Shown piece after piece: positions 1,302 to 16,190 of a DNA stretch of 20,436 nt. Made by a program: the position numbers and the translations under genes. The DNA is taken from the IMG/VR virus record IMGVR_UViG_3300006793_000378, positions 1-20,436 of that record; one strand, given 5' to 3'. The DNA is from a virus. Numbering within the stretch: position 1 is the first letter of the stretch; each line of letters opens with the position of its first letter. Under the pieces are notes generated by a model. The model was not told the origin of the DNA and made no database searches. It was given only the letters and a program-made list of their open reading frames with translations.

Positions 1302-1768
1302 AGTTAACAGCAAACATAACATTAGACGAGCTTACCAAAAGCCAAATAGCTGAGAGGAAGGGAATTAACAATAATCCTAACCCACAGCAAATTGAAAATC
1401 TAAAAGCGTTAGCAGTAAACATACTACAACCAGTTCGTTCGCACTTTGACAAACCATTAATTATATCATCAGGATTCCGTTGTGCTCAGCTGTGCCTAGA
1501 AATTGGAAGTTCAGTAAACTCTCAACATGTAGCAGATAAACAAGCTGCTGCAGCAGACTTTGAAATACCTAGCGTAGATAACAGAGAGCTAGCTTCGTGG
1601 GTTAAATCAGAGTTGGAATATGACCAGCTAATCTTAGAATTCTACCGAGATAATGAACCTTCCTCAGGCTGGATTCATTGTTCATACTCGACTAATTCAA
1701 ATAGAAATCAATCCTTGCGTGCCAAAAGAGTTGATGGTAAAGTCGTGTATTCACCATGGCTAGAATAA
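1298..1768 (+). CDS. M15-family peptidase, probable endolysin
   Basis: The protein matches zinc D-Ala-D-Ala carboxypeptidase-like enzymes (peptidase M15A), used by many phages as an endolysin to cut peptidoglycan cross-links. Visible hallmarks are ISSGFRC at about residues 56-62, SQH with His77, ADFEI with Asp87, and WIHCSY with His127. His77, Asp87 and His127 are the expected zinc ligands, and Glu114 in the LILEFY motif may be the catalytic acid/base. The usual HxxGxAxD motif is altered: His77 and Asp87 are ten residues apart instead of seven, and the glycine is missing. Its 156-residue length is normal for phage versions. There is no signal peptide, so export would need a holin or similar. 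A strong GGAG site precedes the ATG, which overlaps the previous stop. Confidence 0.9.
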   Translation: MKLTANITLDELTKSQIAERKGINNNPNPQQIENLKALAVNILQPVRSHFDKPLIISSGFRCAQLCLEIGSSVNSQHVADKQAAAADFEIPSVDNRELASWVKSELEYDQLILEFYRDNEPSSGWIHCSYSTNSNRNQSLRAKRVDGKVVYSPWLE

Positions 1769-2271
1769 CTGTTATAGATAATTTTCTAGAAGATAAACAT
1801 TTTAAAAAAATTCAAGAACACTTCCTATCAAGTACGATACCTTGGTATTGGCTACCTCAAGATGTTCCATTAGAGGATGAACAAGAAAACTTAAGTAAGA
1901 ATGGTTTTTTTAATCATTGTATTTTTAATCATTGGCAATTTTTAGCACCATATTCTAAAGAAATAGGATTACTTTTAACGAAATTGAATATTGTAGCTCC
2001 TATACAAATTAGAGCTAATTTAAACTTGCGGGATGTTGATTCTATTAGTTCAAAATGGCATGTAGATTATCCAGATATACCAAATAATAAAACAGCTATT
2101 TTTTATTTAAATAATAATAACGGTAAGACAATAGTAGATGATAATGGTAAACACACAAAAGTTGACAGTAAGGAAAATAGAATGTTAATATTAGATGGAG
2201 ATATAAAACATAAAGCTCAATATCAAACAGACGTACATAAGAGATATTTATTAAATATAAACTACGTATAG
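1756..2271 (+). CDS. 2OG-Fe(II) oxygenase-like protein (first of four)
   Basis: This 171-residue protein has the double-stranded beta-helix signature of 2-oxoglutarate/Fe(II) dioxygenases: WHVDY gives His102 and Asp104, His152 lies in DGDIKHKA, and Arg163 in KRYLLNINY would bind 2-oxoglutarate. It opens with ITVIDNFLED, the usual 'fixed' N-terminus of phage oxygenases of this kind. Such enzymes hydroxylate or demethylate proteins, nucleic acids or small molecules; the substrate here is unknown. It overlaps the endolysin gene by 13 nt, so the two are probably co-translated. The Asn-rich loop at about residues 119-130 is AT-rich at the DNA level. Confidence 0.8.
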   Translation: MARITVIDNFLEDKHFKKIQEHFLSSTIPWYWLPQDVPLEDEQENLSKNGFFNHCIFNHWQFLAPYSKEIGLLLTKLNIVAPIQIRANLNLRDVDSISSKWHVDYPDIPNNKTAIFYLNNNNGKTIVDDNGKHTKVDSKENRMLILDGDIKHKAQYQTDVHKRYLLNINYV

Positions 2272-2283
2272 GTGGTAAATTAG

Positions 2284-2433
2284 ATGGCAATAACTAGAAG
2301 TCAAATAAAAAAACAGCTAGAACCTGGTCTTGGAAGAGGTTGGGGTAGAGCAGAAAAAAGCAAATTTAGAAAAGTGTTGGAGAAAACACATGGTAAAATC
2401 TATAAATCCAGTCGCAAAAAGTCTAAGGTCTAG
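2284..2433 (+). CDS. Small basic protein, 49 aa, overlapping next gene
   Basis: This ORF begins MAITRSQIKKQLEPG, a start seen in many small marine-phage proteins (recollection), and ends in a Lys/Ser/Arg-rich tail (SSRKKSKV). A GGTGG stretch about 10 nt before the ATG could serve as ribosome binding site. The last 44 nt also encode the start of the next small basic gene in another frame. It has no membrane segment. The function is unknown; its high positive charge would suit binding nucleic acid or another acidic partner. Confidence 0.55.
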   Translation: MAITRSQIKKQLEPGLGRGWGRAEKSKFRKVLEKTHGKIYKSSRKKSKV

Positions 2434-2545
2434 AACATTCAAGCCTAAAGTGATACAATCAAAGAAGTTGTACAACCGTAAAAAGAAGAGAATTAACACT
2501 CTTAATGCGGCCGCACAAATAAAATTGGAGGAGCCAAATGGCTGA
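2390..2545 (+). CDS. Small Lys/Arg-rich conserved phage protein, 51 aa
   Basis: From ATG 2390 the protein reads SINPVAKSLRSRTFKPKV and then KKLYNRKKKR, a pattern I associate with a very common tiny basic protein in marine podoviruses (VAKxLR...PKV...K.YNRKK). The frame is open further upstream to an ATG at 2330, but that part lies inside the preceding gene and the conserved-looking part starts at 2390. A TTGGAG ribosome binding site lies 8-10 nt before the ATG. Its end overlaps the next gene by 8 nt. The charge suggests a nucleic-acid or virion packaging role, which is inference. Confidence 0.65.
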   Translation: MVKSINPVAKSLRSRTFKPKVIQSKKLYNRKKKRINTLNAAAQIKLEEPNG

Positions 2546-2930
2546 TAAAAAGTCTTATAAGAAAAAGAAACTTGATGTTACTTTTGGTGGTGGAATATAT
2601 GATGATGAATATGTTACCACGCCTAGAGCATCTATGGGTGTTGGAAAAGGGGATAAGAAATTAGATTTTACTTTTGAAAAACCTTTTAGTAAAAAAACTA
2701 AAGAAAATATATCTAGTCAGATAGGTCTTGGTTATACCAAAGAAGGTGAAAACTCCAGTTTTAATGTTACAGGAACAAAACGAGGTAAGTCAAAAAATTT
2801 AAGTTTTAATTATAGCAGAAGCTTTAGCACTGGTGGCTATACGGGATCTTATATTAAAAGTGAATTAGATGGTAAAAAAGTTTCTAATAAATCATACGAA
2901 CAATATTATAAGGGCATGATTGATGTTTAA
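2538..2930 (+). CDS. Beta-strand-rich protein of unknown function, 130 aa
   Basis: After a Lys-rich start, the protein is a run of alternating hydrophobic/polar segments separated by Gly, Asn or Lys-rich turns: LDVTFGGGIY, ASMGVGKGDKKLDFTFEKPF, SQIGLGYTKEG, SSFNVTGTKRG, NLSFNYSRSF. This recalls the strands of outer-membrane beta-barrels or beta-meander proteins, but there is no signal peptide and only about six to eight strands. A TTGGAGGAG ribosome binding site stands 5 nt before ATG. It overlaps its neighbours on both sides by 8 nt. The position after the endolysin and before the neck genes would fit a lysis or virion accessory role. I cannot name the family. Confidence 0.65.
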   Translation: MADKKSYKKKKLDVTFGGGIYDDEYVTTPRASMGVGKGDKKLDFTFEKPFSKKTKENISSQIGLGYTKEGENSSFNVTGTKRGKSKNLSFNYSRSFSTGGYTGSYIKSELDGKKVSNKSYEQYYKGMIDV

Positions 2931-3000
2931 AAAAATTAAAAAGTATATAAAACATATAATAGAAAAATTACTTGGCAAAAGATGCCAGTGTAAGGATTAA
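2923..3000 (+). CDS. 25-aa cationic amphipathic peptide, possible lysis peptide
   Basis: A 25-codon ORF starts inside the end of the previous gene with AAGGG 8 nt upstream of its ATG and stops 2 nt before the next gene. Residues 2-19 (FKKIKKYIKHIIEKLLGK) form a textbook amphipathic helix: Phe2, Ile5, Tyr8, Ile9, Ile12, Ile13, Leu16 and Leu17 fall on one face and lysines on the other. The tail has two cysteines (CQC). Net charge is strongly positive. Such peptides resemble antimicrobial peptides and the phage 'disruptin' type of outer-membrane lysis peptide. This role is inference; a chance ORF in AT-rich DNA cannot be excluded. Confidence 0.5.
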   Translation: MFKKIKKYIKHIIEKLLGKRCQCKD

Positions 3001-3002
3001 TT

Positions 3003-3704
3003 ATGGCAACATCAGGAGCAACATCATTTAATCTTAATATCGATGAAGTCATTGATGAAGGATTTGAAAGATGCGGTGGTATTAGACCAAGCACGGGCTA
3101 TGATTTAAAAACAGCACGAAGATCATTAAACTTATTATTTTCTGATTGGGGAAACAGAGGAATACATCTTTGGAAAGTTGAATTAAATGAACAAGCATTA
3201 ACAGCAGGCACAGCTACTTACAGTGTCGCTGCCAATGTAAGTGATGTCTTAGAAGCTTACATATCAACCACAGCTGCGTCAGGTGATAATGCTAACACAC
3301 AAGATGTAGCGCTTACAAAAATAGACAGATCTGCTTATTCAGCTAAACCTAATAAATTAGCAAGAGGACAACCATCACAATATTATGTTGATAGACAAGT
3401 AACTCCAAAAATAAGTTTATATGTTGCGCCTGATGCATCAACATACACAACTTTAAAATATTACACTATAAATAGAATTGAAGACGCAACAGCTTATAAT
3501 GACCAACAAGCTGATGTAGTTTACCGATTTTTACCATGTATGTGTGCAGGTTTAGCTTATTATTTAGCTATGAAAAAAGCACCTGAAAGACTTGAAGCAA
3601 TGAAATTAATTTACGAAGATGAAATGAAAAGAGCTTTGGAAGAAGACGGGCAGAGAACATCATTATATATCTCTCCTCAGTCGTACTTTCCAAATGTATC
3701 ATAA
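3003..3704 (+). CDS. Neck / head-tail adaptor-like protein
   Basis: This 233-residue protein begins with a helical region (INIDEV-like start, then EGFERCGGIRPSTGYDLKTARRSLNLLF at about 15-45) followed by beta-rich segments and a helical C-terminus. This is the layout of P22 gp4-like tail accessory factors and SU10-type adaptor proteins, which sit under the portal and join head to tail. The helix-rich RSLNLLFSDWGNRGIHLW segment is typical of marine podovirus relatives. Identification is by resemblance, not by a catalytic motif. AAGGA precedes the ATG by 6 nt. The stop overlaps the next ATG (TAATG), which points to translational coupling in the neck gene set. Confidence 0.7.
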   Translation: MATSGATSFNLNIDEVIDEGFERCGGIRPSTGYDLKTARRSLNLLFSDWGNRGIHLWKVELNEQALTAGTATYSVAANVSDVLEAYISTTAASGDNANTQDVALTKIDRSAYSAKPNKLARGQPSQYYVDRQVTPKISLYVAPDASTYTTLKYYTINRIEDATAYNDQQADVVYRFLPCMCAGLAYYLAMKKAPERLEAMKLIYEDEMKRALEEDGQRTSLYISPQSYFPNVS

Positions 3705-9047: not shown

Positions 9048-9607
9048 AAAATCTAGTAAAGGTTTATGATGAGGCTATCAGTCAGGGTGATGTAAACAAG
9101 ATCATTATGTATTGTAAAAGCGTAGAGGAATTTCAAAAAGGTAAGATAGGTGATAACATAGGTGTTGAAGATACAAATATTAGAAAAGTTTTATTACATG
9201 AGGTAGTTCCTGTTAAAAAAAGTATGACAATGGCTTTTATTCATAATTTTTTAAAGACAACTTTCTTTCAATACTTCTTTAGATACAAACAAGAGACAGG
9301 ATGTACTCTTAATATGAATTTTTTAAATGAAATGAGCATACTAAAATATGAACCAGGGCATTTTTTTAAACCACACTTTGATGCAGGTACGTCCCCTGTT
9401 AGAAATATGAGTTTTATTTTGATGTTAAATAATGATTACGAAGGTGGTCAATTAAGTTTTTTTGATCCTGATTGTAAAACAAATGAATATACGGTAGATG
9501 TTAAACCAGGCAGATTAATTATTTGGCCTAGTTATTGGATGTTTCCACATGGAGTAAAGCCAGTAACAAAAGGAATAAGATATGCCATAGTTTCGTGGGG
9601 TCAATGA
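9038..9607 (+). CDS. Prolyl-4-hydroxylase-type 2OG-Fe(II) oxygenase (second of four)
   Basis: This 189-residue protein has a clear P4H-like core: YEPGHFFKPHFDAG places His113 and Asp115, the FILMLNNDYEGGQLSFF strand follows, and WMFPHGVKPVTKG gives His171, with Arg181 in IRYAIVSW for 2-oxoglutarate. All iron and cofactor residues are present, so it is probably active. Related enzymes hydroxylate proline or lysine in proteins, but the substrate is not known here. I prefer ATG 9038 (GGAGAA 7 nt upstream) over the TTG at 9023. It overlaps the previous gene by 10 nt and the next by an ATGA junction. The first 80 residues are helical and specific to phage versions. Confidence 0.85.
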   Translation: MEIKNLVKVYDEAISQGDVNKIIMYCKSVEEFQKGKIGDNIGVEDTNIRKVLLHEVVPVKKSMTMAFIHNFLKTTFFQYFFRYKQETGCTLNMNFLNEMSILKYEPGHFFKPHFDAGTSPVRNMSFILMLNNDYEGGQLSFFDPDCKTNEYTVDVKPGRLIIWPSYWMFPHGVKPVTKGIRYAIVSWGQ

Positions 9608-10152
9608 TGGAAGGTAAATATAAAAAAATAGAAAATTTTGTATCGCAAGACGTTTTAGATCTTTTAAAAAATTATTGTAAAATTACTCATAGAATAAATT
9701 GTGATGAGTTTGACACACAACCTGGACACACAACAACAGGTTATTATGGTCATCCTATAATGGAAGCCTTAATGATTAAACAAACCAAAAAGATTTCTGA
9801 AATTGTAGGTAAAAAAGTAATGCCAACTTATTCATATTGGCGATCTTACACTATGGGTGATATTTTACCAAAGCATAAGGATAGACCTGAATGTGAATAT
9901 AGTGTTACTTTAATGATAGACTCATGTGGTACAGAGTGGCCTATATATTTAGAGGGGACCCCTATCAATTTAAAGCCAGGTGATGGTGTTGTTTATAAAG
10001 GATGTGAGGCCGAACATTGGAGAAAAACCTTTACTGGAGATTATCACGCTCAATGTTTTCTACATTACTACGATCCTGAAACAAATAAAGAAGCGCAAGC
10101 TGTAGATGGAAGAGCGTTATGGGGTATGAAAAAACCTATCATGCCTATTTAA
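9604..10152 (+). CDS. 2OG-Fe(II) oxygenase-like protein (third of four)
   Basis: This 182-residue protein shows MGDILPKHKDRPECEYSVTL, in which His91 and Asp93 form the HxD pair, and YKGCEAEHWRKTF with His138, followed by HAQCFLHYYD. This PKHKDRP...PGDGVVYKG...EHWR pattern is typical of an oxygenase group in cyanophages and pelagiphages. The usual 2-oxoglutarate-binding arginine after the last histidine is not at the expected place, although Arg140 lies just past His138. The preferred start is ATG 9604, which overlaps the previous stop (ATGATG; 9607 is possible). A longer frame beginning at 9535 lies in the previous gene and is not needed. Confidence 0.75.
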   Translation: MMEGKYKKIENFVSQDVLDLLKNYCKITHRINCDEFDTQPGHTTTGYYGHPIMEALMIKQTKKISEIVGKKVMPTYSYWRSYTMGDILPKHKDRPECEYSVTLMIDSCGTEWPIYLEGTPINLKPGDGVVYKGCEAEHWRKTFTGDYHAQCFLHYYDPETNKEAQAVDGRALWGMKKPIMPI

Positions 10153-12572: not shown

Positions 12573-12913
12573 TGACCATACAATATAAAAACCAAGGTAT
12601 AAATTTAACCACAACAGGCACAGCCTCTGTTTTAACGTGTCCTACAAGTGCTACTTTTTTAATAAGACAAGTACAAGTTGATAATTCTAGCGGAAGTCCA
12701 GTAAACTTATCCGTGCAAGTAACTGATACATCTGCTTCAACTACTTACTCAATTTCAAGGAAAGCCATTGCTGCTAACACTGTTTCAAATATAATTACGC
12801 AAACATTAGTTTTAGAAGGCGGTGATATTTTAAAAATGACTGCTGGAACAGCAAACGAGATACAAGGCATTATATCCTACGCACAATTAGATAGATCTCA
12901 GGAAAATGGTTAA
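12572..12913 (+). CDS. Small virion structural protein, 113 aa
   Basis: This is a Thr/Ser-rich, beta-only protein (QGINLTTTGTASVLTCPTSA, FLIRQVQVDNSSGSPVNL, ILKMTAGTANEIQGIISYAQL). It resembles the small beta-sandwich proteins of marine podovirus tails that are often annotated as virion structural. There is one cysteine, no signal peptide and no membrane segment. It is coupled to the previous gene by TAATG and overlaps the following oxygenase-like gene by 8 nt. The exact location in the particle is unknown. Confidence 0.65.
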   Translation: MTIQYKNQGINLTTTGTASVLTCPTSATFLIRQVQVDNSSGSPVNLSVQVTDTSASTTYSISRKAIAANTVSNIITQTLVLEGGDILKMTAGTANEIQGIISYAQLDRSQENG

Positions 12914-13481
12914 AAAAACAGTTTTATTCACCGAGTCTATACAGCGCTTAAAAATAATGAACGATGACTTTAATAATCTTTTATTGTCTAAATTAAAAGA
13001 AGCAGAAGATAAAAACTATTTAAATGAAGCCTCTAACATTTTTGGAGTTCAAACTAAAGATGTGATGTGTGAAGAAATATTTAAGGTTATTGAAGTTCTT
13101 ATGGACCAATGTTTAACAGATTTATTCGGAAGTTGTAAAACAAAATTTCACATTACAAACTTTTGGATCAACAAGAACAATAAAGGATCATTCAATAGAA
13201 CGCACGTCCATCCGGGATGTCAACTTTCTGCAGTCTATTATGTCAAAGCACCAAAAAATTGTGGGGACATTGTATTTTCTAATCCTAATGTAGCCTCTGT
13301 TATGCAAGGTTTTGACAAGCTAAAGGAACCAGAATTTCAATCCGAGTGGTCAGTTAAACCAGAAGATGGATTATTTATTTTATTTCCATCATATATGCCT
13401 CATGAGGTACACCCTAACCAAAGTGATGAAGAAAGAATATCTGCTGCATTTAACGTACAAGTAGAGTTGTTAGATGGGTAA
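12906..13481 (+). CDS. 2OG-Fe(II) oxygenase-like protein, TIGR02466 type (fourth of four)
   Basis: The core resembles the TIGR02466 family of putative 2OG-Fe(II) oxygenases: FNRTHVHPGCQLSAVYYVKAP (His100 and His102), GLFILFPSYMPHEVHPN (His166), and DEERISAAFN with Arg177. Residues in the iron and 2-oxoglutarate positions are present, although the HxD pair is replaced by HxH, as is usual in this group. The first 80 residues are a helical phage-specific part. It is in the middle of virion genes and coupled to both neighbours (8-nt overlap upstream, 8-nt overlap downstream). The substrate is unknown. Confidence 0.8.
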   Translation: MVKKTVLFTESIQRLKIMNDDFNNLLLSKLKEAEDKNYLNEASNIFGVQTKDVMCEEIFKVIEVLMDQCLTDLFGSCKTKFHITNFWINKNNKGSFNRTHVHPGCQLSAVYYVKAPKNCGDIVFSNPNVASVMQGFDKLKEPEFQSEWSVKPEDGLFILFPSYMPHEVHPNQSDEERISAAFNVQVELLDG

Positions 13482-13608
13482 AAGAAAACCGTTATTTGGT
13501 GTAAGTAATTATGTTAAAAGAACTAGGAAAAAAAGGCCTGGCAGACATAATAAAAGTTGGTCTAAAAGAATACCACGGAGAAAACGCAATCGTGGACAGG
13601 GGCGATAA
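13474..13608 (+). CDS. Small Arg/Lys-rich conserved protein, 44 aa
   Basis: The protein is almost entirely basic: KRKPLFGVSNYVKRTRKKRP, then GRHNKSWSKRIPRRKRNRGQGR. I recall near-identical tiny proteins in pelagiphages and cyanophages (KRTRKKRPG and RGQGR at the end), but cannot check this. It starts inside the end of the oxygenase-like gene. Such charge suggests binding to DNA or RNA. A competing ORF at 13511-13618 in another frame looks less convincing. Confidence 0.65.
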   Translation: MGKRKPLFGVSNYVKRTRKKRPGRHNKSWSKRIPRRKRNRGQGR

Positions 13609-13628
13609 ATTATTGTAACTATTCATTT

Positions 13629-14561
13629 ATGCAAATACTTGGAGTAAATATTTCACATAATCCTTCTATATGTGTTTATGAAAACGGTAAAGTTAAAAAA
13701 TTTTATAATGAAGAACGTTTTATATTGAAGAAAAATACACAACTTAGTTACGAGCCTTTTGAACTTTTTCAATCAATACATCAAAAAATAAATTTTAAAA
13801 TAGATACAGTTTGTTACGCATCTTTTGGCAGAAACAGAGCTTATTACCCTTTATCTGACAATGACATAATCAACATATTACAAAAACAACTTAATTTTCC
13901 TAATTATTATTTTAATGAAAAGGAACATCACTTATACCATGCTGTCTCATCTTTTTATTTTAGTGAATTTGATGAGGCTGCTGCGATAGTTGTAGATGGA
14001 GGAGGAGCGTGTAAATTTTACATCCCTTATGAAGAGATTGAGTCTATATATTTAATTAATAACAAAAAAGTTTTACCAGTTTATAAACATCAAACTAATG
14101 AAAGAGCAAGTTTTGATGCTGAAAATGTAGTTTCGTTTGAATCTTTTGAGTACAAACATGGTTATCTTAATAAATTTTCTAATAAACTTATGGGGGGTGC
14201 TCTTTTTACAGCTACCTGTAAAAAAAATGGTTTTGTGGATGGTAATGACGCGGGTAAACTAATGGGTTTAGCATCTTATGCAAACTGCGATAAAAAATAT
14301 GATTTAGACTATAATAAAGTAAACGCAGCACAAGAAACACAACAAAAAACTTTTAATGATACATGCTTGTTGATAGATAGAGCAAAAGGATATAGTAAGA
14401 ATATTTTGTTATCTGGTGGTTATTTTTTAAACTGTTCTAATAATTTTAAATATGTAAAAAAATATCCAGAGCTTAATTTTTTTGTTGATCCCATACCACA
14501 CGATCCTGGGACAGCCATAGGAGCAGCAATTTATTATGATAATTATAAAAGAAGAATATAA
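13629..14561 (+). CDS. Carbamoyltransferase, N-terminal half (NodU/TobZ family)
   Basis: The sequence matches the N-terminal (Kae1-like) domain of O-carbamoyltransferases, which make carbamoyl-AMP from carbamoyl phosphate and ATP and move the carbamoyl group to a hydroxyl. Visible motifs are LGVNISHNPSICV at 4-16, HHLYH at 100-104 (metal-binding histidines), EAAAIVVDGGG at 116-126, GKLMGLASY at 209-217, LSGGYFLNC at 261-269, and HDPGTAIGAA at 291-300. It stops after 310 residues where a single-chain enzyme would continue; the remainder lies in the next frame. The start has no clear ribosome binding site. The substrate may be a sugar of a surface glycan, as the following glycosyltransferases suggest. 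Confidence 0.8.
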   Translation: MQILGVNISHNPSICVYENGKVKKFYNEERFILKKNTQLSYEPFELFQSIHQKINFKIDTVCYASFGRNRAYYPLSDNDIINILQKQLNFPNYYFNEKEHHLYHAVSSFYFSEFDEAAAIVVDGGGACKFYIPYEEIESIYLINNKKVLPVYKHQTNERASFDAENVVSFESFEYKHGYLNKFSNKLMGGALFTATCKKNGFVDGNDAGKLMGLASYANCDKKYDLDYNKVNAAQETQQKTFNDTCLLIDRAKGYSKNILLSGGYFLNCSNNFKYVKKYPELNFFVDPIPHDPGTAIGAAIYYDNYKRRI

Positions 14562-15066
14562 AGCAGTAGAAGTATTACTTAGTCAAAAACCATTGGTATT
14601 GTTTTATGGTGATAGTGAGTGGGGGGCAAGAGCATTAGGCCATAGATCTATTTTGTTTGATGCTAGAAATAAAGATGCAAAAAATATTGTAAACAAATTG
14701 AAAAAAAGGGAATGGTGGAGACCTCTAGCAGGAACAGTATTATTAGAATATGCACATGAATATTTTGATTTAGCCACTCTTAAAGAAAGTCCACATATGT
14801 CTTTTGCGGTAGATGCTAAAGAAAAGGCTAAAACAGAAGTGCCTTCAATTGTACATGTAGATAATACTTGCAGAATACAAACTTTAACAAAAAAACAAAA
14901 CAAGCCTTTTTACAATTTAATAAAGCATTTTTACGACAAAACTGGCGTTCCTATGTTGTTAAATACATCGTTTAATTTAGCTGGCTATCCAATTGTAGAG
15001 GACGACTTGCATTTAAAATTAACAGTGTTAAATTCTGAATTTAAAAGTGTTTACATTCCACAATAA
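14536..15066 (+). CDS. Carbamoyltransferase, C-terminal half, in the +1 frame
   Basis: This ORF carries the other domain of the same enzyme: GARALGHRS at 30-38, KREWWRPLAGTVL at 57-69 and TGVPMLLNTSFN at 136-147. These match the conserved C-terminal motifs (GPRALGxRS, REWFRPxAP, GVPxLLNTSFN), with Pro replaced by Ala at residue 31 and Pro-like spacing elsewhere kept. It begins 26 nt before the first half ends and lies one base off its frame, with no clear ribosome binding site. It may be a separate subunit made by coupling, the product of programmed frameshifting, or a sequencing or mutational frameshift. It is shorter than the usual family domain, since some linker is missing. Confidence 0.75.
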   Translation: MIIIKEEYKAVEVLLSQKPLVLFYGDSEWGARALGHRSILFDARNKDAKNIVNKLKKREWWRPLAGTVLLEYAHEYFDLATLKESPHMSFAVDAKEKAKTEVPSIVHVDNTCRIQTLTKKQNKPFYNLIKHFYDKTGVPMLLNTSFNLAGYPIVEDDLHLKLTVLNSEFKSVYIPQ

Positions 15067-15084: not shown

Positions 15085-15261
15085 ATGACTGTATATCAAA
15101 AAATTAAATGTAAAACTAAAACAATCTATAGAAGTATTAAAACTAATAAAAGATATGAAACTGAAGAGGCTTTTTTAAAAGAACATCCTAAAGAGGATTT
15201 AGCAACTGATGTTGAAGTGCTAGTTCCTGATCTTCCGATGTTTAGTAAAACAAAAATATGA
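15085..15261 (+). CDS. Small protein between modification genes, 58 aa
   Basis: This ORF begins TVYQKIKCKTKTIYRSIKTN, then RYETEEAFLKEHPKEDLATD, and ends EVLVPDLPMFSKTKI. The mix of beta strand, acidic helix and second strand looks like a folded small domain, perhaps a partner of an enzyme. Similar short proteins occur in marine phages in my recollection, without a known function. Its ATGA junction couples it to the glycosyltransferase gene. Confidence 0.6.
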   Translation: MTVYQKIKCKTKTIYRSIKTNKRYETEEAFLKEHPKEDLATDVEVLVPDLPMFSKTKI

Positions 15262-16190
15262 AACCAGCAGGCGGAACAGAACTACAACATGAATTTTTAA
15301 AGAAGCACGTAGCTTCAGAATTATTAGATCACTTCCAAATATGTACATCAGTGCCGGGCAAAGTTCCTATAGCAGCTAATAAAATAAATATACTTTGGCA
15401 AAAGATGGCACCCGATCAGCCACACTTTCAAGAATTTTTTAAAGACCCAGAGCAAATAAAACAATATGATTATTATGTATTTAATAGTCATTGGAATTAT
15501 GAACAATTTCGTAAGCAGTTTAATATACCATTAGAAAGATGTACTGTAATTAAAAACGGAATACTTGATTTTAAAAAAAGAGACCCAGCACCTAAAAGAG
15601 ATAAAATTAAATTAATATATCATCCAACTCCTTGGAGAGGTTTGTCTATTTTACTAGGAGCCATGCAACTCATAGAGAACAAAAACATAGAATTAGATGT
15701 TTATAGTAGTACACAAATATACGGTGATGATTTTAAAAAAGAAAACGATCCAGGATATCAAGCATTATATGACCAAGCAAAAAAATTACCCAATGTAAAT
15801 TACATAGGCTACAAATCTAATGAATATATACTTGAAAACTTACATACTTATGATGCTTTTGTTTATCCTAATATATGGGAGGAGACATTCTGTATCTCTG
15901 CACTTGAATCATTAGCTTGTGGTTTATTTGTAGTAACAACGGACAACGGAGCACTCTACGAAACTTGCTCAGAGTTTCCCGTATATGTTCCATACGATAA
16001 TAATTTTAAAAATTTAGCTCATCAATTTGCAGCTATAATTGATGGAATACCAGATCAAATAAATTCAAAAGGCTGCCATAATCATCTTAGGTATCAATCT
16101 AATTTTTTTAATCATTTTTATAACTGGAAAAACATAGCAGGACAGTGGGAGCAGTTTTTGAAAGGAGCTTTAAATGCAAGACCCCAATAA
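15258..16190 (+). CDS. Glycosyltransferase, GT-B fold (family 4-like)
   Basis: This 310-residue protein has the GT4 signature near its C-terminal half: YPNIWEETFCISALESLACG, with Glu209 and Glu217 as the E-x7-E pair that binds the sugar nucleotide. Other marks are GGTEL near the N-terminus and a HPTPWRGLSILL stretch at 122-133, which is the usual start of the second Rossmann domain. Length is slightly below the usual 350-400, because the N-terminal domain is short. It would transfer a sugar to a glycan, protein or nucleic-acid acceptor; the acceptor is unknown. It is coupled at its start and overlaps the next gene by 17 nt. Confidence 0.85.
   Translation: MKPAGGTELQHEFLKKHVASELLDHFQICTSVPGKVPIAANKINILWQKMAPDQPHFQEFFKDPEQIKQYDYYVFNSHWNYEQFRKQFNIPLERCTVIKNGILDFKKRDPAPKRDKIKLIYHPTPWRGLSILLGAMQLIENKNIELDVYSSTQIYGDDFKKENDPGYQALYDQAKKLPNVNYIGYKSNEYILENLHTYDAFVYPNIWEETFCISALESLACGLFVVTTDNGALYETCSEFPVYVPYDNNFKNLAHQFAAIIDGIPDQINSKGCHNHLRYQSNFFNHFYNWKNIAGQWEQFLKGALNARPQ

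Follow-up and report, generated by a model that had tools for sequence, protein, structure and literature searches.

Two overlapping genes for the domains of a predicted O-carbamoyltransferase in marine phages

The gene pair and its surroundings

The window, by which we mean the whole stretch of DNA analysed, is a viral record, 20,436 bases long, and is syntenic with Pelagibacter phage HTVC023P; the host of the phage is probably a SAR11 bacterium. Two overlapping genes in it encode the halves of a carbamoyltransferase and are accompanied by an oxygenase and a glycosyltransferase (Table 1). The oxygenase and both halves are flanked by homologues of HTVC023P gp74 and gp77, and at the corresponding place (gp74–gp77) HTVC023P has two small hypothetical genes. 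The oxygenase and the carbamoyltransferase pair are likely to be one inserted cassette. Carbamoyltransferase is not named in the main text of a survey of phages of the HTVC023P type (PMC9599517). A 35-codon ORF (13511–13618) lies between the oxygenase and the N-half. The stretch at 9535–10152, which is adjoined by 2OG oxygenases, is labelled ferrochelatase by PHROGs and has no Pfam match above cut-off; this label may be wrong.

Table 1. Features of the carbamoyltransferase locus (positions in the window)
Feature	Position	Strand	Basis
2OG-Fe(II) oxygenase adjoining the pair	12906..13481	+	PF13759, E 2.6e-27
N-half gene; predicted Kae1-like acceptor and iron-binding subunit, 310 aa	13629..14561	+	PF02543; model mean pLDDT 93.9; best PDB matches TobZ; invariant ligands and base
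GGAG, possible Shine-Dalgarno site, 12 nt 5' of the C-half ATG	14520..14523	+	Sequence
Overlap of 26 nt, from C-half ATG to N-half stop	14536..14561	+	Sequence; ATG in 66/66 non-redundant relatives
C-half gene; predicted YrdC-like carbamoyl-adenylate-forming subunit, 176 aa	14536..15066	+	PF16861; model mean pLDDT 92.9, with order beginning at residue 1; closest PDB structures the C-domains of GdmN and TobZ
Group 1 glycosyltransferase 3' of the pair, homologous to HTVC023P gp77	15258..16190	+	PF00534, E 7.1e-14; 55.5% identity

Pfam assigns 13629–14558 to Carbam_trans_N (PF02543, E 1.5e-15) and, in the +1 frame relative to the N-half, 14536–15063 to Carbam_trans_C (PF16861, E 1.6e-50). Both halves match phrog_1601, a profile of 528 aa for Nol-like carbamoyltransferases, at separate ends (the best stretch of the N-half at positions 1–217, the C-half at 357–522); phrog_20469, a profile of 181 positions likewise named Nol-like carbamoyltransferase, is a further match of the C-half. 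The iron ligands of GdmN are H133, H137, D156 and D333 (PMC9633730). By motif, spacing and profile alignment they are H100, H104, D123 and D292 of the window, and these residues, together with the catalytic base H10, are invariant in 54 N-halves. As judged from sequence, then, the N-half is the Kae1-like domain and the C-half the YrdC-like domain of a TobZ/Nol-type O-carbamoyltransferase. The PF02543 N-domain, the PF16861 C-domain, the H/H/D/D ligands and the catalytic His that define class III enzymes of this type are all present; the two domains are not on one chain, so we class the pair as a split form of the class III family and not as a typical member. The sequence-only reading had placed the pair exactly, including its motifs (HHLYH and GKLMGLASY in one frame, GARALGHRS and GVPMLLNTSFN in the +1 frame) and the 26-nt overlap.

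Each half is predicted to fold alone (Table 1). In the N-half model the last helix (residues 294–307) is followed by 3 residues to the end, and in the C-half model the first strand is formed by residues 2–4. Ranked against the PDB, the N-half is best matched by TobZ, with TsaD/Kae1 after, and the C-half by GdmN/TobZ, with TsaC/Sua5 after. These next matches (TsaC/Sua5/YrdC and TsaD/Kae1) could point to two subunits that move some other carbamoyl-type group or act on tRNA in the manner of TsaC/TsaD. We consider this improbable, as the closest profiles and folds are PF02543/PF16861, TobZ, GdmN, NovN and VtdB, the E-values for TobZ-type enzymes being many orders better than for TsaC with the C-half and better than for TsaD with the N-half; a t6A system would be closest to TsaC/Sua5 and TsaD/Kae1, which is not what was found.

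The interdomain linker is 25–52 residues long in fused phage relatives and 26–59 in fused bacterial and archaeal ones, and window-type N-halves end a median of 7 residues past the point at which the linker of fused relatives starts. By this measure the linker seen in every fused relative (25–59 residues) is gone from the window-type split, and the clean cut between domains that had been claimed for the window is borne out. In both halves dN is well below dS in seven divergent pairs, and on these estimates purifying selection acts on both; the window and L003 are a very close pair with too few changes for dN/dS to be read.

Conservation of the break among relatives

IMG/VR was scanned twice and then extended by profile searches, the counts covering loci up to L223. 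N-then-C splits account for 201 rows, of which 66 are non-redundant (<90% C-half identity), and every window-type IMG/VR locus holding both halves is split at the same place. Three further IMG/VR contigs, taken from different metagenomes, have exactly the same junction as the window, one of them with only 94% N-half identity, and N-half identity falls to about 40% within the clade sharing the break. In a tree of the C-domain the window-type splits form one clade (67 split rows, SH-aLRT 97; 99 in a second sample). A comparison of the junction in related phages, proposed earlier as a check, thus finds the boundary conserved in 66/66, and the split is real, old and common to many ocean phages. 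For all phage splits together, a single origin is not rejected (AU p 0.328).

That a normal fused gene has been broken by a recent frameshift mutation, or only seems broken through an error of sequencing or assembly, would agree with the fused state of the cellular relatives, which are single-chain in 79/79 classifiable bacterial and archaeal loci, with no split among them (best 80 examined). The expectation that the family is normally one chain therefore holds for bacteria and archaea and fails for marine phages. The recurrence of the same break in independent metagenomes and in dozens of lineages as far diverged as noted above, and the low dN relative to dS in both halves of diverged pairs, argue against an error. 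So does the missing linker, which disfavours a simple one-base indel because an indel would leave the linker in place. The base error allowed for by the sequence-only reading is scarcely credible.

An ATG in the C frame, noticed in the overlap of the window, is present in all 66 non-redundant splits, 4–38 nt before the end of the N stop. In control windows, arbitrary 36-nt stretches of the same N ORFs, a +1-frame ATG occurs in 9% (9–15% across controls), a comparison that is a description and not a test as the sequences are related. The residues around the C-half start vary (YYDN, YYEN, YNDY, YYHE and others), so the conserved ATG is not explained by a single fixed peptide. SD-like 4-mers are found in 50 of the 66 relatives; the GGAG of the window, only a possible site, carries no weight as evidence for a Shine-Dalgarno site since the same letters encode a conserved motif of the N-half, IGA.

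Programmed +1 frameshifting in the overlap, giving one fused enzyme, had also been allowed for. The overlap is short, and the +1 relation is kept in 63 of the 66 splits, both of which would suit such a mechanism; the other three, however, are in the +2 frame with a 4-nt ATGA overlap, the C-frame ATG is always kept, and the fused product would be without the linker present in every fused relative. No slippery site common to the relatives was seen by eye. A conserved frame relation together with an internal start that is not needed would mark a programmed frameshift, and this combination is not found.

Rearranged, separated and duplicated halves

Other phages arrange the halves in other ways. 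In L166/L167, two contigs from different samples that are 99.7% identical, the halves are separated by a 206-codon 2OG-Fe(II) oxygenase gene. The start of this gene falls where relatives start their C-half, and 4 nt past its stop comes a separate ATG for the C-half. The order is reversed, C then N, in S-RIM44, Sf-FP1, S-SCSM1 (two pairs) and AG-345-D19; another seven viral loci have it too. L392 has a single C-half with an N-half on either side, the adjoining genes overlapping by ATGA, and a further C-half was looked for in the 4 kb downstream and not detected; L318 and L319 are also N-C-N loci. An N-half is parted from a C-N pair by another gene in L321, L328 and L351, a fused gene is followed by an extra N-half in L322, L326, L327, L329 and L370, and S-SSM7 has an N-half near a fused copy. 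An N-half scan based on L121 returned only four loci.

The inserted gene, the reversed order, the N-C-N sets and the extra N-halves make frameshifting or error untenable as a general explanation. With a frame that varies by lineage as well, frameshifting is a very improbable account of the window pair, and a minor frameshift fusion product made alongside the separate proteins is possible.

The N-C-N loci, the loci with a fused gene and an extra N-half, and S-SSM7 also fit a reading in which the phage halves are interchangeable modules, one carbamoyl-AMP-forming subunit serving several acceptor subunits with different substrates. We offer this tentatively, at somewhat less than even odds.

The N-half of S-SSM7 (SSSM7_123; L305 3995–5104) is a lone protein of 369 aa that retains every iron ligand; its neighbours are a 2OG oxygenase and the fused copy. 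N-halves downstream of a C-half have Asn at the position of the catalytic His in L318, L319, L321, L322, L326–L329, L333 and L351, and the upstream N copy has Lys there in L321, L322, L326–L329 and L351, with all iron ligands kept. The H14N form of TobZ is a studied variant (PDB 3vex). The Lys/Asn pairs of N copies hint at paired, specialised N-subunits. Given a half without its own partner nearby (SSSM7_123) and the swaps of catalytic base, the copies need not all be the same enzyme. In L103 a fused carbamoyltransferase (1457–3094) is followed, with a 4-nt overlap, by a split pair (3091 onward), so that one phage has both forms.

The proposed enzyme and its relatives

With a probability of about 0.9, the two ORFs are separately translated genes, probably translationally coupled, that encode the subunits of one O-carbamoyltransferase. 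This reading, which had been favoured from the start and is supported by the conserved boundary and ATG, draws on sequence evidence: the separate conserved start, selection, loss of the linker, the independent arrangement of the halves and the conserved catalytic residues. Complex formation, activity and the acceptor of the pair we infer.

In class III enzymes, formation of carbamoyl-AMP is the task of the YrdC-like part and transfer of the carbamoyl group that of the Kae1-like part (PMC9633730). In the phage pair, the YrdC-like C-subunit would convert carbamoyl phosphate and ATP to carbamoyl-AMP, and the Kae1-like, iron-binding N-subunit would take this and move the carbamoyl group to an acceptor hydroxyl, perhaps of a sugar or a hydroxylated side chain. 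The layout of subunits would be akin to that of TsaC and TsaD in tRNA t6A synthesis. There too a separate YrdC-like activator (TsaC/Sua5) and a Kae1-like transferase (TsaD/Kae1) pass on an acyl-adenylate, although the acceptor is different and the similarity only distant. Among split loci, 20/52 have a 2OG oxygenase or a ‘ferrochelatase’-labelled protein no more than 900 nt upstream, and 20/59 have one no more than 900 nt downstream; for this reason we would guess that the acceptor is an oxygenase-made hydroxyl, which would be O-carbamoylated. A sugar is the other candidate because a glycosyltransferase adjoins the window pair.

The MetaGPA 5-hydroxymethylcytosine carbamoyltransferase, which occurs with thymidylate synthase, is one chain of 63 kDa (PMC8670742). 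It is probably phage-borne and has the same PF02543 and PF16861 domains as the window pair. The neighbours of the window pair are different, a 2OG oxygenase on one side and a group 1 glycosyltransferase on the other. Group 1 glycosyltransferase neighbours have been reported for carbamoyltransferases on unmodified contigs (PMC8670742). A role in DNA modification was considered and set aside for the window pair, as thymidylate synthase adjoins the reversed-order cyanophage pairs and not this one.

TobZ, GdmN, NovN and VtdB resemble the window pair in having two domains, in their iron ligands and in their domain folds, but each is one chain with a linker, whereas the window has two genes and no linker. 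In TobZ-type enzymes the labile carbamoyl-AMP is believed to move from one site to the other within a single protein. With a natural version made of two proteins and found in several gene orders, channelling versus diffusion of this intermediate becomes testable, and the halves are ready-made separate parts for enzyme work. The pair is also a case of fission of a metabolic enzyme at a domain boundary in widespread marine phages, one that annotation tools may miscall as a broken gene.

The Nol-like carbamoyltransferases of cyanophages S-RIM44, Sf-FP1 and S-SCSM1 (PHROG 20469) are, as in the window, encoded by two genes, one per domain; they differ in their C-then-N order and in N-halves that retain part of the linker, the window pair being N-then-C with no linker. 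Literature searches, covering open-licence papers only, found no published description of the split enzyme. Public cyanophage records already annotate the halves as separate genes, and a PHROG of the length of a stand-alone C-half exists. The carbamoyltransferase of L224, a contig of a Neomarinimicrobiota MAG, groups inside the phage clade, and from its sequence this stretch of the contig may be viral.
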